This document shows, one piece after another, positions 13,771-30,600 of a stretch of 64,000 nucleotides of DNA. The notes beneath the pieces are model-generated. The model was not told the DNA's origin and made no database searches. It was given only the letters and a program-made list of their open reading frames with translations. This DNA comes from Mumia sp. Pv4-285. GTDB lineage: Bacteria; Actinomycetota; Actinomycetes; Propionibacteriales; Nocardioidaceae. Within the stretch, counting starts at the first letter, position 1. Every line of letters begins with the position of its first letter. Made by a program: the position numbers and the translations under genes. The stretch is taken from the NCBI RefSeq assembly GCF_041320275.1, contig NZ_CP162023.1:620001-684000 (forward strand). The letters are read 5' to 3'.

Positions 13771-13855
13771 CCGTCCCCCTCGGCTCGGTTCGCAGGTGCT
13801 CCCTCACAGTAGGGCAGCACGGTGGTCGCGGCGAGTGGCGCGCGCAGCGGGACGC

Positions 13856-14587
13856 TCAGGTCGCCCGTGCGACGACGAGGAACTGCTGGAGGTGGCCGCG
13901 CGCGAGCCGACGGCCGGCGAGCCAGCGTTCAGCGGTGCGCATGCGCTGGGGGGTCGAGATGTTCCAGCGTGACCCCATCCACGGGAGGGCGCCGTAGTCG
14001 TGGTGCGCCACCACCACGAAGCCGTTCGACTCGAGGAGTCGCCGCGTCGCCGCGGGGGAGAGCGTCGGCGGGACGTTCCCGCTCAGAAGCCCGCGGAGTC
14101 GGTACGCGGCACCTGCGAGGCTCGTCGTGTTCCACTGGACGTTCATGACGAGGTGCCCGTCGGGCGAGAGAAGAGTGCGCAACGCCTGGAGAGCATCGCG
14201 ACGCAAAGACGGCTCGGCGTTCACGAAGAACCGGAACGCGGTCGCGACGTCGACGCGTGGCGGGACCTGATCGGGGCGTCCCTGAGTGAGGTCCGCGCGG
14301 ACCAGCGTCGCGCGCTGACAGCGTTCGCGGGCCCGGGAGAGCATCTCGTCGGAGACGTCCACCCCGACGGTCGTTGCGAAGACCGGCTCGCAGACGGCGG
14401 TGACCCGCCCCGTGCCGCAGGCGAAGTCGAGGCAACGCGTTGCGCCGGAATCCCGCAGGCCGTGCAGCACTCGCTCGATCAGCGGGCGCTCGACCTCGGT
14501 CCAGAGGTCGTGGTGGTAGCCGCTGCTCAGCGAGCGGTCGTACTGGGCTGCCTTCCCGTGGGAGGAATGGCTGAGGCGGTAGCTCAT
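13856..14587 (-). CDS. Class I SAM-dependent methyltransferase
   Basis: 243 residues with motif I CLDFACGTGRVT, acidic loop VGVDVSDEML, and DVATAFRFFVNAEPSLRRDALQALRTLLSPDGHLVMNV, a Methyltransf_11/25-type core. The location between glycan genes suggests methylation of a sugar, lipid carrier or other polymer component, but the substrate cannot be inferred. GAGGA overlapping the upstream kinase stop serves as ribosome binding site for ATG at 14587. Third gene of the O-antigen ligase-kinase-methyltransferase run. Confidence 0.8.
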   Translation of the reverse strand: MSYRLSHSSHGKAAQYDRSLSSGYHHDLWTEVERPLIERVLHGLRDSGATRCLDFACGTGRVTAVCEPVFATTVGVDVSDEMLSRARERCQRATLVRADLTQGRPDQVPPRVDVATAFRFFVNAEPSLRRDALQALRTLLSPDGHLVMNVQWNTTSLAGAAYRLRGLLSGNVPPTLSPAATRRLLESNGFVVVAHHDYGALPWMGSRWNISTPQRMRTAERWLAGRRLARGHLQQFLVVARAT

Positions 14588-14594
14588 CGTGTCC

Positions 14595-15326
14595 TCACAG
14601 AGTCTTCGCCCAGACGAACGCGGTGGCGCTCGCGATCGGACGGGGAAGGTCGGCACCTCGCACGAGATACGTACGCAGGTGCTCTTGCCCGGCCTCGACG
14701 ACAGCGTCCCACGACGGAACCGACCCCGACTCGGCGGCGTACCCGTCGAGAAATGCCTCCAGGAGGCGCCGCCGCGGGAGCCGCAACGCGGTCGCGTAGC
14801 GGATGATCGATCCGCGGCGGCCCAGCAGGCAGGAGGTCATGTGGGCGAGGTCGCGGATCGGCGGGCCCACGTCCCGGGGCTCGACGTACGGCGCGGGCGT
14901 CGGGTCGATGACCCCGATCGTGGAGTCGCTCAGCCGCACGAGGACGTTGGAGAAGCCGAAGTCACCGTGCAGGACGACGTGACCGGCCGTAACCGGGGTG
15001 GTGAGGGCATCGGCGAGCCATCGCCGCGTCACCTCGCTGTGTCCGTGGATCCGAGCCAGCACGCCGCCGGTGCGCGAGAACAGGGACGCGACGGCGCGAG
15101 GAGCATCCTTGCTCGCATCGAAGGCCGCCACGACGGGGACGAACCCCTCCAACCTGCTCATCCTCATGACGCCGGCCTCCTCGTCGACCGCGAGCGGACG
15201 GGGGACGACGAAGAGCCCTCCCGCGAACTCTTCGTATGCTCGCAGCTTGCGAGCCTCGCGGACGAGCTCTGCTCCGGGGCCGTGCTTGACCACGACGTCG
15301 CCCTCGACCCGTACCCGCACGATCAC
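14595..15326 (-). CDS. Aminoglycoside-phosphotransferase-fold small-molecule kinase
   Basis: 243 residues with kinase-like landmarks: VVVKHG (ATP-binding Lys), catalytic loop VLHGDFGFSNVLV and metal-binding IGVIDPTPAPYVEPRDVGPPIRDLAHM. It is not a protein-kinase sequence; APH/choline-kinase folds phosphorylate sugars, polyols or amines. GTG at 15326 overlaps the stop of the O-antigen ligase gene (GTGA) behind GAGGGGGG, which fixes the start. The substrate is unknown. Together with the methyltransferase it could make a capped or decorated glycan end, as in O-antigen chain terminators, but this is inference. Confidence 0.72.
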   Translation of the reverse strand: MIVRVRVEGDVVVKHGPGAELVREARKLRAYEEFAGGLFVVPRPLAVDEEAGVMRMSRLEGFVPVVAAFDASKDAPRAVASLFSRTGGVLARIHGHSEVTRRWLADALTTPVTAGHVVLHGDFGFSNVLVRLSDSTIGVIDPTPAPYVEPRDVGPPIRDLAHMTSCLLGRRGSIIRYATALRLPRRRLLEAFLDGYAAESGSVPSWDAVVEAGQEHLRTYLVRGADLPRPIASATAFVWAKTL

Positions 15327-16747
15327 GCCCCCCTCGAACCCGGTGCGGTACGAGTGCGCGAGGTCGGACGCAACACTGGATCGTCGGCGGCATTGGTCTG
15401 GGCGGTCGGTTCGACCAGCGCCCACGCGGTCGAGATTCCCAGCAGCGCCCAGAACACGCGCGAGTTCTCGACGTTCATCGCGAACGCGTGCGCGAGGACT
15501 CCGACGACGCCTGCGAGCAAGAACGCCGACACCGCATCGCGCGTCCGAGCGACCTTGCGCACGAGGAGGACGACGACGGGCAGGACGATCCCGAGGAAGC
15601 ACATGATCCCCAGGACGCCGGTCTCGGCAAGCAGGCTGAGGTAGGTGCTGTGCGCGATGGGAGCGACACCTGGCGGAAGCCCGACGCCCTCCCACGTTTG
15701 ATATTGACCGACACCCGCCCCGAGGAACGGGTGCGCCTCCCACATGTCGAGAGCGTCACGCCACAGACCGAACCTCTCGTCGCTCGACGCGGCAGCCCAG
15801 CCGCTTCCGATCCGGTCCACGGAGGGAGTTGCCAAGAGGGCGGGGAAGACGAAGAGCAGCGTGAGGGTGCTGGCGATGGCGAGCGCAGCCACTCGTACGA
15901 GGGCCCTGCGTGCCGTCCGTTGCCAGAGTGCGGCGAGGACGACGACGGTGAGGGCGACGACCGCGGCGAGGACGGCGGCGCGCGAGCCGGTCAGGGCGAG
16001 CGCGACGACCTGAGGAACGAGCGCGGCGATCAGCAGGGGCTTCCTGCTGATCACCCAGACGGCCAGCGTGATGCCGAGGGAGATGTAGAGGTACGAGGCG
16101 AAGAGGTTCGGGTTCTCGAAGGTGCCGGTGGCGCGGGAGTAGTCCGTCATGAACTCCAGCGGGCCGCCGACGAGGGTTCCGACGGACGCCACGACACTGA
16201 TCGAGGTCGCGGCGACGACCCAGATCGTCAGGAAGCGGTAGTCCTGCCGACCAAGCGCCCGTGCGGAGTACGTCGCGACGACGGCGAGATAGACGAACCC
16301 GATGACGACCTTCGTCGTGTCGAACACCCCGGCCAGTGCATCGGTCCCGTTGTCGCGTTGCGCCGCGAGAGACAGTCCGAGCAGGGCGACAGCGACGAAG
16401 AGCAGCGCACACACCCCGAGCGGCTGCAGGAACGCGCGAACCCGCTGGTCGAGCCGGAACGTGGGGAAGAACAGAAGTCCACCGAGCATCATCACCAGCC
16501 AGACGTCCGCGGGAGAGACGTTGACCTGAGTGCTCGTTCCGACGACGACGTTGATCGGCATCAGGACGACCAGCACGTCGAGCGCCGTCAGCCGCAGAAG
16601 GACCGCCGCGAGGACGGCGAGCGCGAGTGCCGCGACAACGGCGGCAGCGACGGGTGACTGGAAGGCGAGCACGGCGCCGGTCGCCGCGACCCCGAGCGGT
16701 ACGCAGGACCACAGAAGCGCCGTGGTGCTCTGTGTCCGCTGAGCCAT
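15323..16747 (-). CDS. O-antigen ligase/polymerase family membrane protein
   Basis: 474 residues with about 10-12 membrane helices and a large extracytoplasmic loop near 310-355 containing the Wzy_C-type H-x-x-x-G segment (AHPFLGAGVGQYQTW, then IAHSTYLSLLAETGVLG). Such proteins polymerise or ligate undecaprenyl-linked glycans at the outer face. Wzy polymerase and WaaL ligase cannot be separated by sequence alone; beside a Wzz protein a polymerase role is plausible. GGGAGGC nine bases before ATG at 16747 supports the start. Confidence 0.82.
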   Translation of the reverse strand: MAQRTQSTTALLWSCVPLGVAATGAVLAFQSPVAAAVVAALALAVLAAVLLRLTALDVLVVLMPINVVVGTSTQVNVSPADVWLVMMLGGLLFFPTFRLDQRVRAFLQPLGVCALLFVAVALLGLSLAAQRDNGTDALAGVFDTTKVVIGFVYLAVVATYSARALGRQDYRFLTIWVVAATSISVVASVGTLVGGPLEFMTDYSRATGTFENPNLFASYLYISLGITLAVWVISRKPLLIAALVPQVVALALTGSRAAVLAAVVALTVVVLAALWQRTARRALVRVAALAIASTLTLLFVFPALLATPSVDRIGSGWAAASSDERFGLWRDALDMWEAHPFLGAGVGQYQTWEGVGLPPGVAPIAHSTYLSLLAETGVLGIMCFLGIVLPVVVLLVRKVARTRDAVSAFLLAGVVGVLAHAFAMNVENSRVFWALLGISTAWALVEPTAQTNAADDPVLRPTSRTRTAPGSRGA

Positions 16748-16788
16748 CTGCGATGCCTCCCGCCGGAGCTCGTGGTGGACTCGCCGCC

Positions 16789-16848
16789 ACCCTAGTCAGG
16801 ATCCTCGGGACCGGCAGATCTGCCGGCCCCCACGATCCTGACTAGGGT
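16789..16848. promoter_or_regulatory. 60-bp nested palindrome between divergent glycan genes
   Basis: Perfect 15-bp outer arms (ACCCTAGTCAGGATC at 16789-16803, complement at 16834-16848) and a perfect 16-bp inner palindrome CCGGCAGATCTGCCGG (16811-16826) share one centre, 16818.5. The right end contains TAGGGT, the presumptive -10 of the glycosyltransferase gene, and the left arm holds the mirror-image TAGGGT on the minus strand. Confidence 0.7.
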
Positions 16849-16854
16849 CCCGTC
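16843..16854 (+). promoter_or_regulatory. Leaderless -10 element for the GT4 gene
   Basis: TAGGGT (16843-16848), six bases, ATG at 16855. The hexamer forms the end of the 60-bp palindrome, so a bound dimer would block initiation. Confidence 0.55.
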
Positions 16855-17958
16855 ATGCGGGTCCTCCACGTCGCCCCCGGTGACGCCATCGCGCGCATCC
16901 GCCCTCAGCTCGACGCCCAGCGGGAGCACGGCTACGACGTGCGCGTCGCCTGTGGACGGTCCTCCGACCGCAACTGGTCGAAGCTCGAGCCCTTCGATCC
17001 GCTGGACATCCCGTTCCCGCGTCGTCCGGACCCACGGCAGATCGCGAAGACACTGACTGCCCTCGTGCGGGAGTGTCGGCGGTGGCGCACGGACTACCTC
17101 CACCTCCATTCACCGGCGGTCGCACTCACGGTGCGCTGGGTGCCACGTGGGCTGTGGCCGACCGGGATGCGCGTGGTGTACACGGTGCACGGCTACGGCC
17201 ACCTCTGGCCGCCGCGGGGAATCACCGCACGAGGGGTGCAGCAGGCTGAGCGCATCCTCGCCGCCCGGACCGACCTCATGCTCTTCCAGAGCCGTGAGGA
17301 CCTCGCCGAGTCGCGAGCCCGCCGTTACCGCAGTCGGCTGCGCTATCTCGGCAACGGTGTCGAGGATGCGTGGTTCGACATGAGACCCCGGCCCCGCGTG
17401 GCCGACCGGCTCGAAGTCGTCTACGTCGGGCGGATCGTCGAGGAGAAAGGCGTGCGAGACCTCCTGGCCGCCGTCCAGGGACTCGATCGTGTCCGGCTCC
17501 ACCTCGTCGGCGAAGCGGAGCCGTCCGATCCAGCTCCGGTCGACCTCACCGAGGTCTCGAAGGGCAACGGCACCCCGACGCTCGTCCACGGCCGCGTCGA
17601 GCAGCCGCGCTTGCGGGAGCTCGTGGGTGCCGCCGACGTCCTCTGCCTCCCGAGCTACCGCGAAGGCGTCCCGCAGAGCGTGATCGAGGCGATGGCTGCG
17701 GGGAGACCGGCGATCGTCACCGATGTCAGAGGGTGCCGAGAGCTCGTCACGCACGAGCGCAACGGTCTCGTCGTGCCGACTCGCTCACCGGCCGCCCTAC
17801 GGGCGGCCCTGCGGCGGATGCGGGACATGCCGTCCGACGACTATCTCGCGATGTGCCGGGCCGCGAAGTTCTCCGTCGAGTCCGAGCGGCGCTTGGGCCA
17901 GGTCCACGCACGCCTCCTCGATGCCTACCAGGAGCTCGCCCCCGCCGCGGCCCGGTGA
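16855..17958 (+). CDS. Family 4 glycosyltransferase
   Basis: 367 residues with the GT-B fold. The C-terminal half carries VVYVGRIVEEKGVRDLL, VLCLPSYREGVPQSVIEAMAAGRPAIVTDVRGCRELV (the EX7E donor site) and NGLVVPT. The N-terminal half has HLHSPAVAL and YTVHGYGH. It adds a sugar from a nucleotide donor to a lipid-linked acceptor on the cytosolic face. It precedes the dehydratase-to-flippase operon by 65 bases. Donor and linkage cannot be deduced. Confidence 0.87.
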   Translation: MRVLHVAPGDAIARIRPQLDAQREHGYDVRVACGRSSDRNWSKLEPFDPLDIPFPRRPDPRQIAKTLTALVRECRRWRTDYLHLHSPAVALTVRWVPRGLWPTGMRVVYTVHGYGHLWPPRGITARGVQQAERILAARTDLMLFQSREDLAESRARRYRSRLRYLGNGVEDAWFDMRPRPRVADRLEVVYVGRIVEEKGVRDLLAAVQGLDRVRLHLVGEAEPSDPAPVDLTEVSKGNGTPTLVHGRVEQPRLRELVGAADVLCLPSYREGVPQSVIEAMAAGRPAIVTDVRGCRELVTHERNGLVVPTRSPAALRAALRRMRDMPSDDYLAMCRAAKFSVESERRLGQVHARLLDAYQELAPAAAR

Positions 17959-17983
17959 ACATGCGCTCACCCGTGCGGGTGGC

Positions 17984-17989
17984 TAGTCT
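17984..17989 (+). promoter_or_regulatory. Candidate -10 element for the aminosugar operon
   Basis: TAGTCT lies 35 bases before the GTG at 18024, which has GGAAGGGAG as ribosome binding site. A small hairpin (CACCCG TG CGGGTG, 17968-17981) precedes it. No -35 match was found, so initiation here is tentative. Confidence 0.35.
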
Positions 17990-18023
17990 GCGATGAGCCA
18001 ACCCTTTGGGGGAAGGGAGCTCG

Positions 18024-19850
18024 GTGGCTGTTGTGTCCCAACTGCTACGTCGGCATCGCACCGCGGTGCTCGTCGGTTTTGACGGACTCGCTTGGCTCGC
18101 GGCGACCGTCGCGGTCGTGATCGCGCGGTTCGACGGAGACCTGCGGGAGGTCAACCCACTCGGCACGGTGCTGCTGACCGCGATCCTGGCAGGCGTGTTC
18201 ACCGTGCTCGCGCGGGCCTTCCGCCTGCACAACGGGCGGGCGGTCACCGGCAGCATCGAGGAGGTCGCTCTGGTCAGCGGCGTCGCCCTCAGTGCTGGCC
18301 TCGTGGGGTTCTCGCTCAACTTCGTCACCGACCCGCTCTGGACGCCTCGTGCGGTGCCGATCGGTGCCACCGTCTGCGCGATCGCCATCATGGCCTGGGG
18401 TCGGGTGGCTTGGCGACGGTGGAACGAGCATGGCGCTCGATCGGTCCACCCTGGCGCGGCGCCGGTCCTGGTGGTCGGTGCCGGCGAGGGGGCGCGCCAG
18501 CTGATCCACGCGATCCGGCGTGATGCAGCTGTCGGGTGGGACCCGGTAGGGCTGATCGACGACGATCCGAGGAAGCGCCACCTGCGCATCGAGGGCGTCC
18601 CGGTGCTCGGGGGTCGAGGCGCGATCGCCGACGTCGTTCGCGACCGGGGCGTCGAGACGATCATCCTTGCGATCCCGTCGGCGCGGAGGAACCTCGTCCG
18701 CGCGGTTGCCGGCATCGCTGACGAGGTCGGCGTCGACGTGAAGGTTCTCCCGCCCGTGGCGGAGATCCTCGAGGGTCGGGTCGGTGTCGACGACGTGCGC
18801 GACCTCGACCTGACGGACCTGCTGGGTCGCGCTCAGATCCAGACCGACCTCAAGGGAATCGCGGACTGCCTCACGGGGCGCCGCGTCATGATCACCGGCG
18901 CAGGCGGCTCCATCGGGAGCGAGCTCTGCCTCCAGGTCCAGAGGCTCGGCCCGAGCCAGCTCGTCATGCTGGACCGCGACGAGTCCGCTCTGCACGCCAC
19001 TCAGATGGCCCTGCACGGCCGTGCGCCGATGGACACCGACGACATCGTCCTGGCCGACATCCGAGACGGCGACGCCATCGACGCGGTGTTCAGCTCCTAC
19101 CAGCCCGATGTTGTGTTCCACGCAGCGGCACTCAAGCACCTCCCCGTGCTTGAGCGGTTCCCCGGCGAGGCCGTGAAGACCAACGTCTGGGGAACGAAGA
19201 ACGTGCTCGACGCGGCGCGTGCGTCCGGCGTCGACCGTTTCGTGAACATCTCCACGGACAAGGCGGCGAACCCGATCAGCGTCCTCGGGTACACCAAGAG
19301 GGTCGCCGAAGGGCTCACTGCAGCGTGTGACCGCGACGGCGACGGGACTTACCTCAGCGTGCGGTTCGGGAACGTGCTGGGGAGTCGCGGATCGGTACTC
19401 ACGTCCTTCGTCCATCAGATCGCTGCGGGACTGCCGGTGACCGTCACCCACCCCGACGCGACTCGATACTTCATGACGATCGAGGAGGCGGTCGGCCTCG
19501 TGATCCAGGCGACGGCGATCGGGAACGGCGGCGAGGTCCTGGTGCTGGACATGGGCGAGGCCGTCAACATCCACGCCGTTGCACGTCGACTCATCGCGAT
19601 GTCGCACGCGTCGGTGGACGTCGAGTTCATCGGGCTGCGCCCAGGTGAGAAGGTGCACGAGGAGCTGTTCGGCGACGGTGAGGTCGACACGCGTCCGGAG
19701 CACCCGTCGGTCTCCCACGTCCGCGTGATGCCGCTCTCCTTCTCCGCCGTGCAGAGCCTCGACCCGTGGGCATCGCCACCTGCGGTCATCCGGGGTCTGC
19801 AGAGGCTGGCGCGTCAGCTCCCGCCCCGTCTCGTGGAGGAAGCGGGGTGA
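18024..19850 (+). CDS. Membrane nucleotide-sugar 4,6-dehydratase, PglF/WbpM/CapD type
   Basis: 608 residues: four N-terminal helices (to about 125), a CoA-binding-like Rossmann segment (VLVVGAGEGARQLIHAI), then the SDR catalytic domain (MITGAGGSIGSELC) with ISTDKAANP and LGYTKR. PglF/WbpM enzymes convert UDP-GlcNAc to the 4-keto-6-deoxy sugar. The catalytic Tyr position, Met in WbpM, appears to be Leu here. GTG at 18024 has a good ribosome site. The stop overlaps the next start (GTGA). The aminotransferase that follows supports a 4-keto product. Confidence 0.88.
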   Translation: MAVVSQLLRRHRTAVLVGFDGLAWLAATVAVVIARFDGDLREVNPLGTVLLTAILAGVFTVLARAFRLHNGRAVTGSIEEVALVSGVALSAGLVGFSLNFVTDPLWTPRAVPIGATVCAIAIMAWGRVAWRRWNEHGARSVHPGAAPVLVVGAGEGARQLIHAIRRDAAVGWDPVGLIDDDPRKRHLRIEGVPVLGGRGAIADVVRDRGVETIILAIPSARRNLVRAVAGIADEVGVDVKVLPPVAEILEGRVGVDDVRDLDLTDLLGRAQIQTDLKGIADCLTGRRVMITGAGGSIGSELCLQVQRLGPSQLVMLDRDESALHATQMALHGRAPMDTDDIVLADIRDGDAIDAVFSSYQPDVVFHAAALKHLPVLERFPGEAVKTNVWGTKNVLDAARASGVDRFVNISTDKAANPISVLGYTKRVAEGLTAACDRDGDGTYLSVRFGNVLGSRGSVLTSFVHQIAAGLPVTVTHPDATRYFMTIEEAVGLVIQATAIGNGGEVLVLDMGEAVNIHAVARRLIAMSHASVDVEFIGLRPGEKVHEELFGDGEVDTRPEHPSVSHVRVMPLSFSAVQSLDPWASPPAVIRGLQRLARQLPPRLVEEAG

Positions 19851-21022
19851 GGCGGCCGGCGACCGAGGCGCTGCCCGTCGTCCCCTTCGCACGCCCTGAC
19901 ATCGGCGAGGCGGAGATCGCCGCGGTGGTCCACGCCCTCCGTGAGGGTTGGGTGACGACCGGACCCGCGGCCGCCGAGTTCGAGGATGCCTTCTCTGCCT
20001 TCATGGGCAACGGTGTCGAAGCCGTGGCCGTGAGCTCGGCCACCGCCGGTCTCCACCTCGCCCTGGAAGCCTGCGGGATCGGTCCTGGCGACGAGGTGAT
20101 CGTGCCGACCTGGACGTTCACGGCCACGGCCGAGGTCGTCCGCTACCTCGGCGCCACGCCAGTCCTCGTCGATGTGGAGCCCAGGACGCTCAACATCGAT
20201 CGCGCGGCCTTCGCTGCCGCGATGACACCGCGCACGCGGGCGGTGATCGTCGTGCACTTCGCCGGTCTCGCGGCCGACACCGCCGGCATCGCCGCCCTGG
20301 CGCGCGAGCACGGGCTCAAGGTGATCGAAGATGCGGCCCACGCCCTGCCCAGCAGCCGTGATGGGGAGCTCGTCGGTGCCGCCGGCCAAGCGGACGCCAC
20401 AGTATTCAGCTTCTACGCGACGAAGGCAGTAACCACCGGCGAGGGTGGGATGCTCACGACGCGCGACCCCGGGATCGCCGCCCGGGTGCGCATCATGCGG
20501 TTGCACGGTATCGACCGCGACGCGTTCGACCGCTACCGGCGATCTTCGGCGTGGAGCTACGACGTCATCGCTCCCGGCTTCAAGAACAACCTCCCCGATC
20601 CTGCAGCGGCGATGGGCCGGGTACAGCTCGCTCGGGCGCACGCGATGAGGGACCAGCGAGAGCGCATCGCCGGACGCTACCTCGACGGGTGGGCGGACCT
20701 TCCGCTGGAGCTGCCGAGTCGAGCCGCACTCGGAGACCTTCATTCGTGGCACCTCTTCACCATTCGGCTGCGCGCCGACTCCGGGATCGGGCGAGACGCC
20801 TTCATCGACGCGCTCGCTCAGCGGGGGATCGGGAGCAGCGTCCATTTCATCCCGCTGCACCGGCTGACGTACTGGCGCCGGTCCCTCCACTTCGCGCCGG
20901 ATGCGTTCCCGGTCGCCGACGAGGTCTTCCCCAGGATCGTGAGCGTCCCCGTCTTCAGCGCGATGGCCGACAGCGAGGTCGAGCGCGTCACCCGGGCCGT
21001 ACGTGAGGTGCTGGAGGCGTGA
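19847..21022 (+). CDS. DegT/DnrJ/EryC1 sugar aminotransferase, PglE-like
   Basis: 391 residues. The PLP lysine is K193 in FYATKAVTTGEGGML, with the family segments GVEAVAVSSATAGLHLAL, DEVIVPTWTFTATAEVV and VIEDAAHALPS. It aminates a 4-keto nucleotide sugar with glutamate, the step after the PglF-type dehydratase. GTG at 19847 and the 4-base overlaps at both ends make the start secure. Ends in HFIPLHRLTYWR, typical for UDP-4-keto-6-deoxy-GlcNAc aminotransferases. Confidence 0.9.
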   Translation: MRRPATEALPVVPFARPDIGEAEIAAVVHALREGWVTTGPAAAEFEDAFSAFMGNGVEAVAVSSATAGLHLALEACGIGPGDEVIVPTWTFTATAEVVRYLGATPVLVDVEPRTLNIDRAAFAAAMTPRTRAVIVVHFAGLAADTAGIAALAREHGLKVIEDAAHALPSSRDGELVGAAGQADATVFSFYATKAVTTGEGGMLTTRDPGIAARVRIMRLHGIDRDAFDRYRRSSAWSYDVIAPGFKNNLPDPAAAMGRVQLARAHAMRDQRERIAGRYLDGWADLPLELPSRAALGDLHSWHLFTIRLRADSGIGRDAFIDALAQRGIGSSVHFIPLHRLTYWRRSLHFAPDAFPVADEVFPRIVSVPVFSAMADSEVERVTRAVREVLEA

Positions 21023-21630
21023 GGGCGGCCGTGGAGTCCGCGCTCGCGGGCATCGCCCTGGTGGTGACGGCTCCGCTCCTCCTGCTCATCGGACTCGTCG
21101 TCCGGGTCGAGACGCGTGGGCCCGCGCTGTTCCGCCAAGTCCGGATCGGCCGAGGAGGGCAGCCGTTCGAGATCGTGAAGTTCCGGACGATGCGCGCGGG
21201 GGCGGATGGGCGCGGTCTCGAGGTGACGGTTTCGGGCGACGCCCGTGTCACGAACGTGGGCCGATTCCTTCGCAGGACCAAGCTCGACGAGCTTCCCCAG
21301 CTGCTCAACGTCGTTCGGGGAGAGATGGGAATCGTGGGGCCACGTCCTGAGGTGCCGCGCTACGTCGCACTCTGGCCACCGGAGCTTCGTCACGAGATCC
21401 TCTCCGTCCCGCCGGGACTGACCGACCCGGCCACGATCGCCCTCCGCGATGAAGAGGTTGTCCTGTCGCAGCAGGTCGACCCCGAGCGCTACTACCGCGA
21501 GGTGCTGCTGCCGCGAAAGGCTCGGATGTATTCCTCGTACGTGCGTGACCGCAATGTCCGAGGCGATGTGCTCATCCTCGCGAAGACGGTTCGAGCCGTC
21601 GTGGTCCCGCGGGGCGCTGCCGGCCGATGA
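21019..21630 (+). CDS. Small PglC-like phosphoglycosyl transferase
   Basis: 203 residues: one N-terminal hydrophobic helix of the reentrant type, FEIVKFRTM, then the catalytic Asp-Glu pair in TKLDELPQLLNVVRGEMGIVGPRPE. Monotopic PGTs move a phosphosugar from UDP-sugar to undecaprenyl phosphate, starting glycan assembly. The usual KRxxD lead before the helix is not present (VRAAVES instead). It lies between the aminotransferase and the acetyltransferase with 4-base overlaps. The aminosugar made by this operon is the expected first sugar. Confidence 0.88.
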   Translation: MRAAVESALAGIALVVTAPLLLLIGLVVRVETRGPALFRQVRIGRGGQPFEIVKFRTMRAGADGRGLEVTVSGDARVTNVGRFLRRTKLDELPQLLNVVRGEMGIVGPRPEVPRYVALWPPELRHEILSVPPGLTDPATIALRDEEVVLSQQVDPERYYREVLLPRKARMYSSYVRDRNVRGDVLILAKTVRAVVVPRGAAGR

Positions 21631-22259
21631 CCCGATCGTCCGCGAAGGTCCGCCCAGCGAGCGAAGAGGATCTCGGGGCAATCGTCGAACTGCATCGAGC
21701 CTGTTTTCCCGGCTTCTTCCTCACTGATCTCGGTGCCACATTCCTGACCGAGCTCTACCGGGGGCTGCACGACCTTCCGTCCGGGGTGCTCGTCGCCGCG
21801 TACGACGATCGGCATCGTGTTCTGGGATACGCCGGCGGTTCTGGAGAGCAGCAGGACTTCTACCGAGAGCTGTTGCGGCGTCGAGGATGGAAGTTCGCGC
21901 TCGCCGCGTTGCCAGCCGTTGCGCGTCGGCCAACCATCGCCACGCGAGTTGCTCGGGGACGCACCCGGGCGCGGCGAGACGACGACACGCGAGCACCAGG
22001 TTGCCTCATGTCGTTGGGGGTGGATCCCAAACTTCAGTCGCGAGGCGTTGGCAGGGCGCTGGTAGGCGCCTTCGAAGAGGAGCTGCGCCACCGTGGATGC
22101 GCGGCGTACTGGCTGACGACGGACGAATCCGCCAACGACGCCGCCAACAACTTCTACACGCGCCTCGGCTTCCTGCGTTCACGCGTGGTCGTGACGCCGG
22201 AGGGGCGCCACCTCAATGAGTACACGAAGTCGCTGTCCGCTGATGGTGAGCGCCCATGA
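21627..22259 (+). CDS. GNAT N-acetyltransferase, probably of an aminosugar
   Basis: 210 residues. The acetyl-CoA loop is SRGVGRAL in LMSLGVDPKLQSRGVGRALV (about 130-150), followed by NDAANNFYTRLGF. It sits where PglD would act, after dehydratase and aminotransferase, yet PglD is a left-handed-helix enzyme; a GNAT doing this job recalls PseH and WecD. The middle (about 75-125) has an Arg-rich insert. ATG overlaps the preceding stop (ATGA). The 4-amino group acetylation is inferred from operon logic. Confidence 0.8.
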   Translation: MTRSSAKVRPASEEDLGAIVELHRACFPGFFLTDLGATFLTELYRGLHDLPSGVLVAAYDDRHRVLGYAGGSGEQQDFYRELLRRRGWKFALAALPAVARRPTIATRVARGRTRARRDDDTRAPGCLMSLGVDPKLQSRGVGRALVGAFEEELRHRGCAAYWLTTDESANDAANNFYTRLGFLRSRVVVTPEGRHLNEYTKSLSADGERP

Positions 22260-23527
22260 CCGCCAGCAACCGTCGTCTTCGGCTTCCCTCGGGTGCCGGG
22301 ATGATTGGAGCCTCTGCAACCATCGTTGCCCCGACCCTGGTCTCGGTCGGACTAGGGGCGCTCACGGCAATCGTGACGGCGCGTGAGCTCGGCCCGGAGG
22401 GGCGCGGCGAGATCTCGCTGGTGCTAGCGGTGGTGAGTATCAGCTCAGTCCTCCTCACGCTCGGCATCAACACGTCGGCACGGCTCGCTTTGGTGAGGCC
22501 CGAACACGGAGTCAGAGTGTCCGCCTACCTCGGAGCATCGATCCTGCTGGTCGCCGGGGAGGTGGTCCTCGTCGTCCTGGTCTTGATGGTGACTCCGCTG
22601 ATCGCGAGCTTCCAGTTCGCGGTAGGCGTGCTCTTCCTCGGAGCGCTGTATGCCGCGCTCTACCACTGCGCCGTCCTGGCGCGGGGCCTTCTGGTGACTT
22701 TCGGTGCTCTCTTCGCGACCTCGCTGTTCACGGCGGTCGGGCTGACGGTGACTTTCTCCATCTGTCTCGTGCTCGCCACCACGACGACCTCCGGCGTGAC
22801 TGCGTACCTCCTCGCGTTCGCTGTGGGACTCTCCGTCGAAGTCACGGGGCTGGTCTCCTTCGCGCGGCGCCGACGGCTGCTCACCATGCCCTCGGTGGAC
22901 CTTCGGCAGTGGCACGTACTCATCGGCCTGGGGCTTCCCGCACTGGGCGTCTCGGCTTCGCGGTCCTTCGTCTTCCGTTTTGACAGGTACCTCGTCGCAG
23001 TGTTTCTCGGCCTGGGTCCCGCAGGGATCTACTCCGTCGCCTCGACCCTGAGCGAAGCGCTCCGGATCGTACCGAGGGCACTCAGTGAGGTGGTGCTCCA
23101 TCGCATCGCCAGTGGTCGGAGTGATCACGGTGCCGTGGCGAGGGCGCGTGTCGTCCTGTTCATCGTCATCGCTCCCATGCTTCTTGGACTGGCTGTCTTC
23201 GCGCCGGAGGTGATCACGGTCCTCGTCGGACCTGAGTACCTTCCAGGGGTGACACCGCTCCGGATCCTGTTGATCGGAGAGGTTGCTGTCGCGTCGTTCT
23301 CCGTCGACCTGCACCACCTTGCGGGAATGGGGCACCTGGCCAGGGCAGGCACGCTCGGGATCATGGTCGCGGCCGCCGTCGTGATGCTTGATCTTCTGCT
23401 CATCCCGCTGCTGGGACTGCCGGGGGCTGCGCTCGCCAGCGTCGGCGGCTACTTCACCTTCGGAGTAGTCGCTCGTCTCGCCACGCGACGCGCAGTCCGC
23501 CGTGCTGATGTGGCAACAGCCGACTGA
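22256..23527 (+). CDS. Wzx-like lipid-linked oligosaccharide flippase
   Basis: 423 residues with about 12-14 membrane helices and the PST/MOP landmarks (TARELGPEGRGEISLVLAVVSI near the N-terminus; RFDRYLVAVFLGLGPAGIYSVASTLSEALRIVPRALSEVVL mid-protein). It moves undecaprenyl-linked repeat units to the outer leaflet. Last of five genes coupled by 4-base overlaps; a 117-base gap follows. The DNA here uses more A/T-ending codons than the flanking housekeeping genes, as often seen in variable glycan loci. Confidence 0.85.
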   Translation: MTASNRRLRLPSGAGMIGASATIVAPTLVSVGLGALTAIVTARELGPEGRGEISLVLAVVSISSVLLTLGINTSARLALVRPEHGVRVSAYLGASILLVAGEVVLVVLVLMVTPLIASFQFAVGVLFLGALYAALYHCAVLARGLLVTFGALFATSLFTAVGLTVTFSICLVLATTTTSGVTAYLLAFAVGLSVEVTGLVSFARRRRLLTMPSVDLRQWHVLIGLGLPALGVSASRSFVFRFDRYLVAVFLGLGPAGIYSVASTLSEALRIVPRALSEVVLHRIASGRSDHGAVARARVVLFIVIAPMLLGLAVFAPEVITVLVGPEYLPGVTPLRILLIGEVAVASFSVDLHHLAGMGHLARAGTLGIMVAAAVVMLDLLLIPLLGLPGAALASVGGYFTFGVVARLATRRAVRRADVATAD

Positions 23528-23644
23528 GAGGTCGTGCGAGCTGTTCGGGCCGGCGATCGAAGCAGATCCGGCTGTTGCCGCCTCCACGTACGAGTCGCGG
23601 CGTGCGACCCGCCCACTTACGCTCGACCAGTTGACGCCTAGCTC

Positions 23645-24631
23645 ATGCGGGGGAACATGCGGCTTCTGGTGACGGGTGGCGGAGGGTTCATCGGGTCCAA
23701 CCTCGTGCGCATTGCGATGAAACACCCCCGAGTGAGTGATGTCCGTGTGCTCGACGACTTCTCGACCGGTCGCGAGGAGAATCTCGTCGGTGTGCCGGTC
23801 GACCTTCAGCGCGGGTCGGTGCGCGATCCCTCCGCGCTCATGATGTCCCTGAGGGGCATCGACAGCGTGATCCATCTCGCCGCCATCCCGAGCGTTCCGC
23901 GATCGCTGGCCGATCCGCGCACCTCGTACGAGGTGAACGTCTCGGGCACTGTCGAGGTACTGGAGGCGTGTCGCGCCGTCGGCGTCGATCACGTGGTGGT
24001 CGCGTCGTCGAGCTCGGTGTACGGCGCAAACCCGGCCGAGTACAAGAACGAGCGTGGATGGGTTCGGCCGCTCAGTCCTTATGCGGCGAGCAAGCTCGCA
24101 GCGGAGCAGATCGCGCTGGCTTACCAGGAGTCGTTCGGTCTCAGCGTTTCCGCCTTCCGCTTCTTCAACGTCTATGGGCCTCGACAACCGGCCGGACACA
24201 CCTACTCCGCCGTCGTCCCAGTGTTCGTCGACGCGTTGCTTCGAGGGGCGCCTGTTCCCGTCCACGGTGACGGCGGGCAGACGCGTGACTTCACGTTCGT
24301 CGACGCCGTGTGTCGCGTGCTCATCGAGTCGGCGGTGACCGCGGGGGCGCACAGGGAACCGGTGAATCTTGCCTTCGGGACGCGCACGAGTGTCGTCGAG
24401 CTCATTGAGATGTTGGAGGCGGTGACGGGCAGAACGGCCACTATCGAGTGGCGCCCTCCGCGACCGGCCGACGTTCGAGCATCCCGCGCCGACGGTGGCC
24501 TCCTCCATCAGCTCTATCCCGTCGCCGAGCCGGTCCCGCTCCGAGATGGATTGCGCCGAACCGTGGACTGGTTCGCCACTCGTCCGACATCACACTCCTT
24601 CGATTCGTGGTCCAGCACGCTCCGCCCATAG
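23645..24631 (+). CDS. NAD-dependent 4-epimerase, UDP-GlcNAc/UDP-glucose type
   Basis: 328 residues of extended SDR: GGGGFIGSNL, DDFSTGREENL, HLAAIPSVPRSLADP, ASSSSVYG, catalytic YAASK, FFNVYGPRQ. The SVPRS and FFNVYGPRQP segments resemble WbpP/Gne-type epimerases of N-acetylated sugars. It supplies a galacto-configured donor for the glycan locus. Start is ATG 23645 or ATG 23657; the latter begins at the Rossmann motif and has GGGGGA upstream. Ends 12 bases before the helicase. Confidence 0.85.
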   Translation: MRGNMRLLVTGGGGFIGSNLVRIAMKHPRVSDVRVLDDFSTGREENLVGVPVDLQRGSVRDPSALMMSLRGIDSVIHLAAIPSVPRSLADPRTSYEVNVSGTVEVLEACRAVGVDHVVVASSSSVYGANPAEYKNERGWVRPLSPYAASKLAAEQIALAYQESFGLSVSAFRFFNVYGPRQPAGHTYSAVVPVFVDALLRGAPVPVHGDGGQTRDFTFVDAVCRVLIESAVTAGAHREPVNLAFGTRTSVVELIEMLEAVTGRTATIEWRPPRPADVRASRADGGLLHQLYPVAEPVPLRDGLRRTVDWFATRPTSHSFDSWSSTLRP

Positions 24632-24643
24632 ACTTGACCGGTT

Positions 24644-26413
24644 ATGACTGATTCCGCGCCGAATGAAGCGCAACCTTCTTTTGCTGACCTTCTCGCCGAC
24701 GAGCGACTGGTCCGCGCCCTTGCCGACGTCGGCTACGAGTCGCCGTCACCCATCCAAGCGGAGGCGATCCCTCCACTGCTCGACGGGCACGACATCATCG
24801 GTATGGCGCAGACGGGCACCGGCAAGACCGCTGCCTTCGCGCTCCCGATCCTCTCCGGCATCGATGTGACCCGCCCGGAGACCCAGGCCCTCGTACTCGC
24901 CCCCACCCGTGAGCTCGCGCTGCAGGTCGCCGAGGCGTTCGCCTCGTACGCGAAGCACCTGCCGGGCCTCAACGTGGTTCCCGTCTACGGCGGTGCCGGC
25001 TACTCAGAGCAGCTCGCCGGTCTCCGCAAGGGTGCGCACGTCGTCGTCGGCACCCCCGGTCGTGTGATCGACCACCTCGAGCGCGGCCGCCTCGACCTGA
25101 CGACGATCTCCTACCTCGTCCTCGACGAGGCCGACGAGATGCTCAAGATGGGGTTCGCCGACGACGTCGAGCGCATCCTGCGCGACACGCCGACGACGAA
25201 GCAGGTCGCCCTGTTCTCGGCGACGATGCCGTCGACCATCCGCCGGCTGGCCAGCCAGTACCTCAAGGATCCCGTCGAGGTGAAGGTCAAGTCGCAGACC
25301 GTCACCGCCAAGAACGTCCGCCAGCGTTGGCTGCTGGTCCCGCACTTCCGCAAGCTGGACGCCCTGAGCCGCTTCCTCGAGGTCGAGCCGCACGAGGGCG
25401 TCATCGTCTTCGTCCGTACGAAGTCGGCCACCGAGGAGCTTGCCGAGCAGCTTCGTGTCCTCGGGCACACCGCCCAGGCGATCAACGGCGACCTCGTCCA
25501 GGCCCAGCGCGAGCGCGCGGTCAACGCACTCAAGAGCGGGTCGCTCGACATCCTCGTCGCGACGGACGTCGCTGCCCGTGGGCTCGACGTCGACCGCGTC
25601 AGCCACGTCATCAACTACGACATCCCGCACGACCCCGAGGCGTACGTGCACCGGATCGGCCGTACGGGTCGCGCGGGCCGCAGCGGTGACGCCGTCCTGT
25701 TCGTCACCCCTCGCGAGCGCCGGCTCCTGAGCGTCATCGAGCGCACCACCGGTCAGCCCGTCACGCCGATGGACATCCCCACCGCCGAGCAGGTCAACGC
25801 CCGCCGGGTCGAGCTGTTCGAGGAGGCGATCACCAACGCGCTCGCGAGCCGTGACGTCCACCTCTACCGCGGCATGGTCGGCAAGTACGCCGAGGCGACG
25901 GGCGTCGACCCGCTCGACGTCGCCGCGGCGCTGGCCGTCCGTGCACAGGACGGTCGCACCTTCCTGCTCGACGCCAAGGACGACATCCAGCTCTCCGAGC
26001 GCGACAAGGGTCGTGACCGTGACCGGGGCGATCGTCCCGAGCGCCCGCAGCGCCCCACACCGGACGGCATGGCCGTCTACCGCCTCGCGGTCGGCAAGCG
26101 TCAGCGCGCCACCCCGAAGTCGATCATGGGCGCTCTCGCGAACGAGGGCGGCCTGGGCCGCTCCGACTTCGGCAACATCTCGATCCGGTTCGACCACTCG
26201 CTGGTCGAGCTGCCGGACCCGTTGCCGAGCGGCGCCCAGAACGCGCTCAGCCGGACGCGGATCGGCGGCGAGCTGATCCACCTCGAGCGTGACCGCGGTC
26301 CGCGTGGAGGTTCGGGATCGGGCGGTCCTCGTCGCAGCGGTGGCGGTCGGCCGTGGGACAACGCGGGCAAGGGCCCGGTACGGTCGGCCAGGGCACCACG
26401 ACGCAAGGGGTGA
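24644..26413 (+). CDS. ATP-dependent RNA helicase, DEAD-box (DeaD/CsdA-like)
   Basis: 589 residues with motifs in order: Q motif FADLLADERLVRALADVGYESPSPIQ, AQTGTGKT (I), PTRELALQV (Ia), TPGRVIDHL, DEAD at about 161-164 (II), SAT (III), RGLDVDRVSHVINYDIP (V), HRIGRTGRAG (VI). A DbpA-type RNA-binding domain (about 465-545) and a Gly/Arg-rich basic tail follow. It unwinds structured RNA in ribosome assembly and mRNA decay. TAGACT lies nine bases before ATG, so a very short leader is possible. Confidence 0.95.
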   Translation: MTDSAPNEAQPSFADLLADERLVRALADVGYESPSPIQAEAIPPLLDGHDIIGMAQTGTGKTAAFALPILSGIDVTRPETQALVLAPTRELALQVAEAFASYAKHLPGLNVVPVYGGAGYSEQLAGLRKGAHVVVGTPGRVIDHLERGRLDLTTISYLVLDEADEMLKMGFADDVERILRDTPTTKQVALFSATMPSTIRRLASQYLKDPVEVKVKSQTVTAKNVRQRWLLVPHFRKLDALSRFLEVEPHEGVIVFVRTKSATEELAEQLRVLGHTAQAINGDLVQAQRERAVNALKSGSLDILVATDVAARGLDVDRVSHVINYDIPHDPEAYVHRIGRTGRAGRSGDAVLFVTPRERRLLSVIERTTGQPVTPMDIPTAEQVNARRVELFEEAITNALASRDVHLYRGMVGKYAEATGVDPLDVAAALAVRAQDGRTFLLDAKDDIQLSERDKGRDRDRGDRPERPQRPTPDGMAVYRLAVGKRQRATPKSIMGALANEGGLGRSDFGNISIRFDHSLVELPDPLPSGAQNALSRTRIGGELIHLERDRGPRGGSGSGGPRRSGGGRPWDNAGKGPVRSARAPRRKG

Positions 26414-27595: not shown

Positions 27596-27624
27596 TTGAC
27601 AGTGACCCAGGTCACTCCTAGCGT
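27596..27624 (+). promoter_or_regulatory. Sigma-A promoter of the secreted hydrolase
   Basis: TTGACA (27596-27601), 17-base spacer, TAGCGT (27619-27624). The -35 is a consensus match. Transcription would start near 27631, leaving a 64-base leader with GAGGAG five bases before ATG at 27695. Confidence 0.75.
27601..27616. promoter_or_regulatory. Operator-like palindrome between -35 and -10
   Basis: AGTGACC CA GGTCACT, perfect 7-bp arms, filling the promoter spacer. Its centre is 27 bp from that of the upstream palindrome. Binding here would exclude RNA polymerase, so repression is the simple reading. Confidence 0.65.
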
Positions 27625-27636
27625 CGGCTCGGGCTC

Positions 27637-27648
27637 TGAATCGTTTCA
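27637..27648. promoter_or_regulatory. LacI-family-like operator in the hydrolase leader
   Basis: TGAATCGTTTCA keeps the TGAA..CG..TTCA core common to LacI/GalR operators of actinobacterial sugar-utilisation genes, about 8 bases after the predicted transcription start. No LacI-family gene is in the window. Confidence 0.45.
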
Positions 27649-27694
27649 ACAGACAACCGTCGGCGACTCGGGGCCACCCGACCCGAGGAGTCCG

Positions 27695-30600
27695 ATGAGT
27701 TCCCGTCGTACCCGGCTTCACTCCACAGCCCCCGTCCTGCTCGCCGCCGCCGGTCTCGCTGCCGCGGCCCTCGCCGTTCCGGCCGGTTCGGTCGCGTCGG
27801 CCGCGCCGCCGGGGCATCCGTCCCCGACGGCGTCACCCGAGCTCACGGCCCGCACCTTCGCCGATCCCCCCACGTCGGTCCGTCCCAAGTACCGCTGGTG
27901 GGTCCCGCTCGCCTACACCGAGGACGGCGAGCTGGAGTCCGAGCTCCAGCAGATGAAGGACGCCGGCGCCGGTGGTGCCGAGGTCGCCGCCTTCTCCGTG
28001 GAGGGAAGCGGGAACAACACCAACCCCTTCCTCGAGACGTACGGCTGGGGCACGCCGCGCTGGGCCGAGAAGACCCGCGTGATGATGAAGGCCGCCCGTG
28101 ACCGGGACCTGAGCCTGGACCTCACCATCAGCCCGCGCTGGCCGGCCACCGTTCCCACCGTCGCCGACGTGAACGACGCGGCCGCGGCGCAGCAGATCGC
28201 GTTCGCCACCGAGTTCCACAAGGGCGGCACCGGTCGTACGGGCGCGCTTCCGCGCAATCTCAGCGTCACGGTGCCCTCCGGAGCACGGACCTCGCTGATC
28301 GCCGCCGTCGTGGCGAAGTGCGAGGACGCTGCGTGCGCGTCGCAGTCGGCGAAGCCGAAGCTGCTCGACCGCTCCAGCGTCGTGGACGTCACGCAGAAGG
28401 TCGACGGTACCGGCAACCTCGACCTCACCTTCGAGGGCGACGCGAACAGCACCTATGCGCTCATCGCGTTCTACCAGCTGCCGACCGGCCAGTCGCTCTC
28501 CGGCTACACGCCGACCGGCACCAACTACGTCCTCGACACGCTCAGCGTCGAGGGTGCCAAGGCGACGACGGACTTCTACGACGCCTCCATCCTCACCCCG
28601 GACGTCCGCAAGCTGCTCTCCCAGCTGCGGTCGGCCGACTTCTACGAGGACTCGCTGGAGATCGGCACTACCCAGAAGTGGACCTCCGACTTCGTCGCGG
28701 AGTGGACGAAGCGCCGTGGGTACTCCCCGGTCACCGTCCTGCCCGCCCTCGCCGGTGCCGGAGACCAGGGCATCACGTCGAAGCCAGCGTTCGACTTCGC
28801 CGACGGCTCAGGCGCGCGGGTCCGGACCGACTACCGCCAGACGTGGAGCGACCTCTACATCGCCAACCGCCTCGAGGTGCTCCGTGAGTGGGCGAACCGG
28901 CACCACATGCAGACGCGCGTCCAGACGTACGGCGGTCCGATCGACATCACCGAGGCGTCCGGGCACGTCGATGTCCCGGAGGGCGAGTCCCTCGCGTTCG
29001 GGCAGAGCGTCGCCGCCTACAGCAACGTCGAGGACTACAAGGTCGTCGCATCGGGCGCTCATCTCGCCGGGTCGCCGGTCGTCTCGGACGAGTGCTGCGC
29101 CTTCTCCAACCAGGTGTGGGCGTCGACCGTGGCCGACGCGACGGAGCGGTCGAACCTGCAGGCGGTCTACCGCGGCTTCGCCGGCGGTGTGAACCAGATC
29201 GTGTGGCACGGCTTCCCCTACCTCAACCGTGGGCCGGCCGGTGCGGGACAGCAGTCCACGTGGCCCGGCATGACCTACGGCGGCAACACCTCGTGGTCAG
29301 AGGCGTTCGGGAGCAAGAACAATCCCAGCTGGTCGGACTACCGGCCGGTCAACGACCATCTCGCCCGCATGCAGATGGTCCTGCGTCAGGGCAAGCCGCG
29401 CTTCGACCTCGCCGTCTACCGCCATGACTTCGGCCTCAACGGCACCGGCACCACCGGCACGGGGTCGGACAAGATCCTGCCGAGCTCGTCGGCAACGGCC
29501 GCCGCCGGATACACGTACGAGTACCTCAGCCCGGCGCAGCTGCGGAGCAAGGACGCCCGCTACGAGCACGGAGCGCTCTTCCCCGGTGCGTCTGCCTACC
29601 AGGCTGTCCTCCTCGACGAGCAGGACACGATGCCCGTCGACACGGCTGAGCGCCTCCTCGCCCTCGCGCGGCGCGGTCTCCCGGTCGTCGTGGTCGGAGA
29701 CCTGCCGACGTCCGTCCCAGGGCTCGACCACGGCGGCTCGGAGGACGCCGAGCTCCGGCGCGTGGTCGCTGGGCTCATCGCGCAGCGCAGCGTGGTGCGC
29801 GTCGACGACGAGCGCAAGGTCCCGGCCGCGCTCGAGCGCCTCCGGGTCGCGCCCGCGGCCGCTGCCTCGGTGCCCTCCGCAGACGTCCTTGCCGTACGGC
29901 GGCACGCGAGCGCGAAGGGCGACTCGAGCGACTACTACTACCTGTGGAACCAGACGGGCGCCCGCGCCCACCAGACGATGACGCTCGCCGGTGACGGCAC
30001 TCCGTACCGGCTGAACACCTGGACCGGCGAGATCACCCCGATCACGGAGTACGAGCGGCACCGGGGCGGGGTCACACTGGACGTGGACCTGGCGGCGCAC
30101 GACGCCGACGTCGTCGTGCTGACCGAGCGCCGCGACGGGACCTTCCACGGTCGTGGCCGCACCGGCGCCGACGGCACGTCGAAGGCCGGCCGTGGCGCCG
30201 ACCCTGTGGACATCGCGTCGTGGGACCTCACCGTCGACGGCTGGAGCCCGGGTGCCTCCGGACTCCCCGGCGACACCGCGCACACGCAGCTCGGGCCGGT
30301 CGCGATCCGGTCGGAGCAGGGCGAGCCGCTACCGGCCTGGACGTCGATCACACCTGAGAACGGCTTCGACGCCGACCTCGGCGACGTCTCGGGCGTCGGC
30401 ACCTACACCACGTCGTTCCGACTCGGTGAGGACTGGCGTCGCGTGAGGGAGGCACAGCTCGACCTGGGCCGCGCCGTCGACACCGTCAGCATCACCATCA
30501 ACGGCAAGGCGCTCCCTCCGGTCGACCAGGCGGACCTCGCGCACATCGAGGTGGGCAAGCACCTCCGCGTGGGAGAGAACACGATCAGCGTGAGGGTGGC

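Follow-up and report, generated by a model that had tools for sequence, protein, structure and literature searches.

A five-gene operon of Mumia sp. Pv4-285 combines a predicted 4-amino sugar starter pathway with a GNAT family linked to small phosphoglycosyl transferases

Introduction

Modules for 2-acetamido-4-amino-2,4,6-trideoxy-galactose (FucNAc4N, or AATGal) are known from Streptococcus pneumoniae (Spr1654), Bacteroides fragilis (WcfR/WcfS) and Haemophilus parainfluenzae (PARA_02740-02760), where a dehydratase and a DegT aminotransferase are combined with a small phosphoglycosyl transferase (PGT). The available portions of PMC3989065 and PMC5936713 describe the product of such modules as a free 4-amine sugar and mention no GNAT. 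GNATs that acetylate 4-amino nucleotide sugars are reported as well, namely PseH and WecD (PMC4363471), and the PglF-PglE-PglD-PglC pathway of Campylobacter jejuni leads to bacillosamine. Here we analyze a five-gene operon (18024-23527, plus strand) in a 64,000-nucleotide stretch of the genome of Mumia sp. Pv4-285 (assembly GCF_041320275.1, contig NZ_CP162023.1, positions 620,001 to 684,000), referred to as the window, whose numbering is used throughout. Comparison with these systems gives moderate preference to a starter operon for a polysaccharide, in which a GNAT would cap the 4-amine of a FucNAc4N-type sugar. The GNAT family and its link to the PGT are the most interesting part of this analysis, above the single operon itself.

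Results

Operon structure

The operon and the GNAT insert discussed below comprise the following features, all on the plus strand.

18024-19850, plus strand: PglF-type membrane UDP-HexNAc 4,6-dehydratase, 608 amino acids (Pfam Polysacc_synt_2, 333 bits, and CoA_binding_3; PDB 5BJU)
19847-21022, plus strand: DegT-family 4-aminotransferase of the Spr1654 clade, 391 amino acids (Pfam DegT_DnrJ_EryC1, 379 bits; tree)
21019-21630, plus strand: small monotopic-type PGT of the PGLTDPATI subtype, 203 amino acids (Pfam Bac_transf, 171 bits)
21627-22259, plus strand: GNAT N-acetyltransferase of an uncharacterized glycan-locus family, 210 amino acids (Pfam Acetyltransf_1, 62 bits)
21846-21989, plus strand: two-helix insert of the GNAT, codons 74-121, net charge +7 in the window protein (AlphaFold model, alignment)
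22256-23527, plus strand: Wzx-type oligosaccharide flippase, 423 amino acids (Pfam Polysacc_synt PF01943, 50 bits)

All four junctions overlap by 4 bases, reading GTGA, GTGA, ATGA and ATGA in gene order, and the dehydratase begins with a GTG codon at 18024 that is preceded by GGGAAGGGAG. The operon is real, with a clear Pfam match for every gene; a preliminary description of this DNA had been correct in its coordinates and overlaps, and likewise in naming the GNAT, the flippase and a PglF-type dehydratase. Among solved structures, the dehydratase matches C. jejuni PglF best (5BJU, 236 bits), followed by CapE (144 bits) and 2GN4 (127 bits), which we take to be PseB. Its catalytic stretch ISTDKAANPISVLGYTKR aligns with ISTDKAVRPTNIMGCTKR of PglF, and the natural reading from its family is that the enzyme would act as a retaining 4,6-dehydratase on UDP-GlcNAc. 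A pseudaminic route through PseB, PseC and PseH was ruled out, given that the dehydratase is closest to PglF.

The GNAT belongs to a family found with aminotransferases and PGTs

A search from a six-sequence alignment identified 94 relatives of the GNAT in genome contigs, where the best 80 of these 94 were used in the counts. Record titles place the relatives in actinobacteria, proteobacteria, Geomonas, acidobacteria, Chloroflexi, planctomycetes, Firmicutes, spirochaetes and Bacteroides. Local profiles, derived from loci of Mumia and of the Nocardioides type, served to call the partner genes, and the profile labels WbuB and FnlA, FnlB and FnlC are putative names. Pfam returned GT4, epimerase with Polysacc_synt_C and Epimerase_2 for examples of the genes so labeled other than the FnlA-like one.

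Inspection of the 5 kb around each GNAT reveals a DegT aminotransferase in 72 of the 80 loci, a PGT in 68 and both in 65, along with a WbuB-like GT4 in 62 and FnlA- plus FnlB-like genes in 25. For the 59 loci whose flanks reach 5 kb or more on each side, the aminotransferase is present in 57, the PGT in 54 and both in 54. No more than 150 bp separate the GNAT from the aminotransferase or the PGT in 51/80 loci, and one locus (L183) presents the order PglF-aminotransferase-GNAT-PGT on one strand. Across 49 loci, GNAT tree distances correlate with those of the aminotransferase at a Spearman coefficient of 0.40 (0.37 as a partial correlation controlling for the GT4) and with those of the GT4 at 0.21 (0.14 when controlling for the aminotransferase), a modest gap that carries no species-tree control. 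The aminotransferase-PGT-GNAT core recurs across many phyla and is not special to this host; the preliminary description had presented a decorated, uronate-containing polymer in an actinobacterium as not described. A literature search of limited coverage, which included the available portions of PMC12802240 and PMC7716237, found neither this GNAT family nor a GNAT-PGT link or fusion described.

In two loci the GNAT and the PGT share one open frame, in opposite orders and confirmed by Pfam in both.

L066:7284-8537: PGT-GNAT fusion, PGT first, 417 amino acids, Pseudactinotalea terrae (Pfam)
L071:7983-9212: GNAT-PGT fusion, GNAT first, Eisenbacteria metagenome-assembled genome (Pfam)

The GNAT is fused to a GT4 in five of the 80 loci (L028, L069, L098, L102 and L103), where Pfam was run on L098 and on the L102 gene, the same gene as in L023. 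With some fusions to the PGT and others to the transferase that follows it, the GNAT is bracketed by these two enzymes. An AlphaFold model of the window GNAT (mean pLDDT 92.5, pTM 0.88) shows residues 74-121 as two long helices, and Foldseek with this model retrieves the general GNAT fold. The insert carries a positive net charge in 57/57 aligned members (the window plus 56 of the 80 loci), a comparison made within this GNAT family, with a mean charge of +7.7 over about 48 residues; the remaining protein averages -1.1. As modeled, the insert may form a membrane-facing hairpin.

The aminotransferase points to a probable FucNAc4N-type sugar

The window aminotransferase was compared with characterized relatives by phmmer, scoring 303 bits with ArnB, 230 with 4LC3, 218 with Spr1654 (6EWJ), 216 with perosamine synthase and 77 with 1O61, which is presumably PglE. 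The score with 4ZTC, named as PglE in PMC7725333, is 75 bits. For the tree, 72 loci provided an aminotransferase within 5 kb, and one frame of fewer than 300 amino acids was dropped; the one nearest the GNAT from each of the 71 remaining loci was then combined with the window protein and six references. Inspection of the tree reveals a 63-tip clade (support 0.973) that holds both the window aminotransferase and Spr1654 and excludes ArnB, 4LC3, PerA, 7B0M and PglE. This clade takes in 61 of the 71 loci, with 10 falling outside. Conserved positions can also be followed in the alignment. Among the Spr1654-nearest aminotransferases beside GNAT relatives, the Tyr of Spr1654 is kept in 20/21 and its His in 21/21, and a Ruminococcus aminotransferase adjoining a GNAT relative matches Spr1654 at 489 bits, with the next match at 201. 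Trp89 of ArnB is said to admit only sugars lacking an N-acetyl group (PMC5936713). The corresponding column holds Trp in none of 72 aminotransferases and Phe in the window protein.

Because the aminotransferase groups with Spr1654, apart from ArnB and PglE, a FucNAc4N-type sugar of predicted galacto configuration is more likely than bacillosamine. The PglE-type assignment of the preliminary description does not hold, as the window protein lies outside the PglE side of the tree. An ArnB-type route to 4-amino-4-deoxy-L-arabinose (L-Ara4N) was ruled out by the Phe at the Trp89 column and the position of ArnB outside the clade, though ArnB is the highest-scoring solved relative.

The PGT scores 80 bits with WbaP C-domains and 70 with PglC (8E37, a diNAcBac-1-P transferase), which is a small difference. 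Its loop reads PGLTDPATIALRDEE (PGLTDPATI) where PglC has PGITGLAQV and WbaP has PGMTGLWQV, such that the PglC-type label given earlier is sound for the small-PGT architecture and fails for the subtype. Among 69 PGTs (one from the window and 68 from the loci), a T-D loop occurs in 39 and T-G-L-A-Q in 5, the other 25 having another loop or one unread by the pattern. The five T-G-L-A-Q enzymes (L044, L049, L055, L084 and L085) are each accompanied by an aminotransferase from outside the window clade. In the Nostocoides jenkinsii locus (L084), the aminotransferase scores 199 bits with PerA, 168 with PglE and 85 with Spr1654, and a PglD-family protein reaches 178.8 bits on TIGR03570 (cut-off 160.8). 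An apparently complete bacillosamine set is joined there to fnl-type genes and the GNAT (L084:487-9748).

The association viewed from the aminotransferase

Aminotransferase-first searches in the family, phylum, order and class (E <= 1e-90) returned 50 places, every one of which was inspected, some of them on short contigs. A GNAT is present in 15 of the 50, every one of which is among the 30 closest aminotransferases. Directly upstream of some other aminotransferases are methyltransferases (L140 and L143 by Pfam; L142, L144 and L148 as judged by likeness) and, in L141, a formyltransferase whose best NCBIfam score, to ArnA, is below cut-off.

L141:292-1128: candidate N-modifying formyltransferase
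L140:8466-9164: candidate N-modifying methyltransferase
L143:964-1743: candidate N-modifying methyltransferase

These genes, each of which precedes a related aminotransferase-PGT pair, hint that alternative N-modifying enzymes share the slot beside the aminotransferase. A GNAT and a PglD-like left-handed beta-helix (LbH) protein both occur within 5 kb in one of the 50 places (L181), with the LbH of L182 at 5.7 kb. At least four of seven LbH cases adjoin a second aminotransferase (L187, L188, L192 and L196), so co-occurrence of LbH and GNAT offers no clean test of an exchange with PglD; a hexapeptide-repeat regular expression returned mostly noise in high-GC DNA. In those same four loci, the aminotransferase-PGT pair stands by a hexapeptide acetyltransferase, the second aminotransferase and, judged from its start sequence only, an oxidoreductase, a cassette resembling a WbpB/D/E-like 2,3-diamino sugar pathway.

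Genomic neighborhood

The Mumia genome is a single contig of 4.65 Mb that contains two PGTs, one full-length DegT match (379 bits) and six partial ones (20-33 bits). At E <= 1e-90, the aminotransferase is recovered from four of six genomes of the genus (its own, G021, G038, G049, G057 and G064), leaving two with no match at this threshold. The operon is flanked by the following genes.

7780-8886, minus strand: LCP-family glycopolymer transferase, possibly attaching polymer to the wall (library scan)
11044-12357, plus strand: UDP-glucose/GDP-mannose dehydrogenase family, UGD (Pfam)
12358-13770, minus strand: Wzz-type chain-length protein carrying a BY-kinase domain (library scans, Pfam and NCBIfam)
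13856-14587, minus strand: S-adenosylmethionine-dependent methyltransferase (Pfam, scanned as the longer frame 13859-14656)
14595-15326, minus strand: weak APH-like protein (APH, 31 bits)
15323-16747, minus strand: O-antigen ligase/Wzy-type membrane protein (PF04932)
16855-17958, plus strand: GT4 glycosyltransferase, just upstream of the operon (Pfam)
23645-24631, plus strand: NAD-dependent sugar epimerase/dehydratase (Pfam)

The ugd, epimerase and methyltransferase genes listed in the preliminary description are real, and its kinase comes down to the weak APH match at 14595-15326, for which NCBIfam returned nothing. The GT4, Wzy-type, Wzz/BY-kinase and LCP genes had gone unmentioned; their presence nearby is consistent with a polysaccharide of Wzx/Wzy type, possibly attached to the wall. 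From the UGD/Wzz genes to a DEAD-box helicase (11044-24644), gene content varies among the four Mumia genomes compared (the window and L015-L020), with M. xiangluensis and M. quercus resembling each other; the edges are conserved, and the stretch is read as a variable polysaccharide locus. Close to it, at 27596-31459, is a gene for a large glycoside hydrolase that resembles GH106 rhamnosidases and has F5/F8 type C domains. Rfam and tRNA scans of the 64-kb window gave no matches.

Discussion

The account of the operon that we favor, with moderate confidence, is that of a starter operon for a Wzx/Wzy-type polysaccharide in which the GNAT caps the 4-amine of FucNAc4N near the PGT at the membrane. 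The membrane dehydratase would convert UDP-GlcNAc to a 4-keto-6-deoxy sugar, to which the aminotransferase would add a 4-amino group, most likely yielding UDP-FucNAc4N. The PGT would transfer the sugar-1-phosphate to undecaprenyl phosphate, and the GNAT is predicted to acetylate the 4-amino group, such that the starter sugar would become the neutral 2,4-diacetamido form. Through its cationic two-helix insert, the GNAT probably sits beside the PGT and may act just before or just after transfer, with GT4 enzymes expected to extend the chain and the flippase to export it. The sequence data establish the gene structure, the family memberships, the conserved gene company and the fusions, from which each reaction, the galacto configuration, the nature of the acyl group and the stage of acetylation are predicted. 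A narrower version, in which acetylation takes place on undecaprenyl-diphosphate-linked FucNAc4N, after the PGT has acted and before the second glycosyltransferase does, and serves as a zwitterionic-to-neutral switch in many phyla, is tentative and rather doubtful.

The preliminary description is partly supported overall. Its scheme of UDP-4-amino-4,6-dideoxy-HexNAc synthesis, transfer to a lipid carrier and export stands; its bacillosamine-like product is weakened because the aminotransferase is not PglE-type. The idea that the GNAT replaces PglD agrees with the GNAT being the sole N-acetyltransferase of the operon, in a genome where a scan for the NeuD/PglD family (TIGR03570) gave nothing above cut-off (best 64 versus 160.8 bits), and a strict exchange is kept as a weak reading.

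Several observations weigh against the capping of FucNAc4N by the GNAT. By bit score and tree distance alike, ArnB (303 bits; tree distance 2.48) is closer to the window aminotransferase than Spr1654 is (218 bits; 3.02). Some aminotransferase profiles are reported to lump enzymes with axial products together with those giving equatorial ones (PMC7725333), and the product of Spr1654 is a prediction, unproven according to the available text of PMC5936713. A GNAT is lacking from 35/50 aminotransferase-first loci; of the 59 GNAT loci with long flanks, L031 and L038 show no partner of either kind, a PGT is missing from L054 and L101, and L069 has its PGT at 6.2 kb. The GNAT fold is generic, with WecD and PseH absent from the best 50 of 594 Foldseek matches (E <= 0.001), and the charge of the insert was compared within this one family. 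The arrangement around fnl-type genes adds to these points. In L084 the order is WbuB-FnlA-FnlB-GNAT-FnlC, and the neighbors include PglF, an aminotransferase from the PglE side of the tree, a PGT with the PglC loop and the PglD-family protein; its near relative L085 has a like set, so the GNAT is not needed for that 4-amino group in either locus. The GNAT also sits between FnlB- and FnlC-like genes in L181 and L189, and in L191, L193, L194 and L199 it directly follows an FnlB-like gene, with the aminotransferase encoded on the other strand. Either the cassette carries the GNAT along, or the GNAT has its substrate elsewhere in the lipid-linked oligosaccharide.

The rival that best survives takes up this last option, with the GNAT modifying a later sugar or adding an O-acetyl or other acyl group, such that a free 4-amine starter would give a zwitterionic glycan. 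Placement with fnl-type genes in actinobacteria, the PglD-family protein alongside the GNAT in L084 and L085 and the five GT4 fusions all speak for it. Nonetheless we judge it unlikely: FnlA- plus FnlB-like genes accompany 25/80 GNATs versus 72/80 for the aminotransferase, two fusions join the GNAT to the PGT, a WbuB-like GT4 and fnl-type genes are both missing from the window operon, and some related aminotransferases have alternative N-modifying enzymes directly upstream.

Second among the rivals, and likewise improbable, is that the operon makes UDP-N,N'-diacetylbacillosamine (UDP-diNAcBac, gluco configuration) with the GNAT in PglD's stead. The PglF-type dehydratase, the small PGT and the GNAT at the acetyltransferase place fit such a pathway, both synthesis and use of UDP-diNAcBac have been reported for EpsC-N-M-L of Bacillus subtilis (PMC10653937), and configuration is not safely read from the aminotransferase family (PMC7725333). 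Against this stand the PglE scores of 75-77 bits versus 303 for ArnB and 218 for Spr1654, together with a position outside the PglE/PerA side of the tree, a PGT loop unlike that of PglC and of the PGT in the PglD-bearing L084, and the near-complete retention of the Spr1654 Tyr (20/21) and His (21/21) beside GNATs. That the GNAT is a bystander acting on an amino acid, protein or antibiotic, as its generic fold and weak RimI/YpeA-type sequence matches might suggest, is highly improbable given gene company and fusions conserved in distant bacteria.

If the capping reaction on FucNAc4N is correct, a GNAT family lacking an assigned reaction would gain a precise one in the surface glycans of many phyla, and a diamino trideoxy sugar would be placed at the base of an actinobacterial polysaccharide. 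From the presence or absence of the GNAT it would then be possible to predict if a glycan started by FucNAc4N stays positively charged. Modulation of T cells has been reported for zwitterionic capsular polysaccharides of this type (PMC10167101).

Comparison with known systems

The window shares with the FucNAc4N modules its dehydratase, DegT aminotransferase and small PGT, and its aminotransferase falls in the Spr1654 clade, where Spr1654 alone was compared by sequence and the WcfR/WcfS and PARA genes by description. In contrast to those modules, the window has a GNAT. The C. jejuni pathway and EpsC-N-M-L follow the same order of chemistry, the PglF-type dehydratase being common to the C. jejuni pathway and the window, whereas the window aminotransferase and PGT fall in other groups and a GNAT is present rather than the left-handed beta-helix PglD. 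A GNAT acting on a 4-amino nucleotide sugar is likewise reported for PseB-PseC-PseH (pseudaminic acid) and WecE-WecD (Fuc4NAc) (PMC4363471), from which the window differs in its PglF-like dehydratase, its putative PGT-started lipid-linked glycan and the cationic two-helix insert of its GNAT. Finally, PglB of Neisseria unites a PGT and an acetyltransferase in one chain, as do the fusions of L066 and L071; the acetyltransferase of PglB is reported to be PglD-like (PMC1976384), in contrast to the GNAT of these two fusions.

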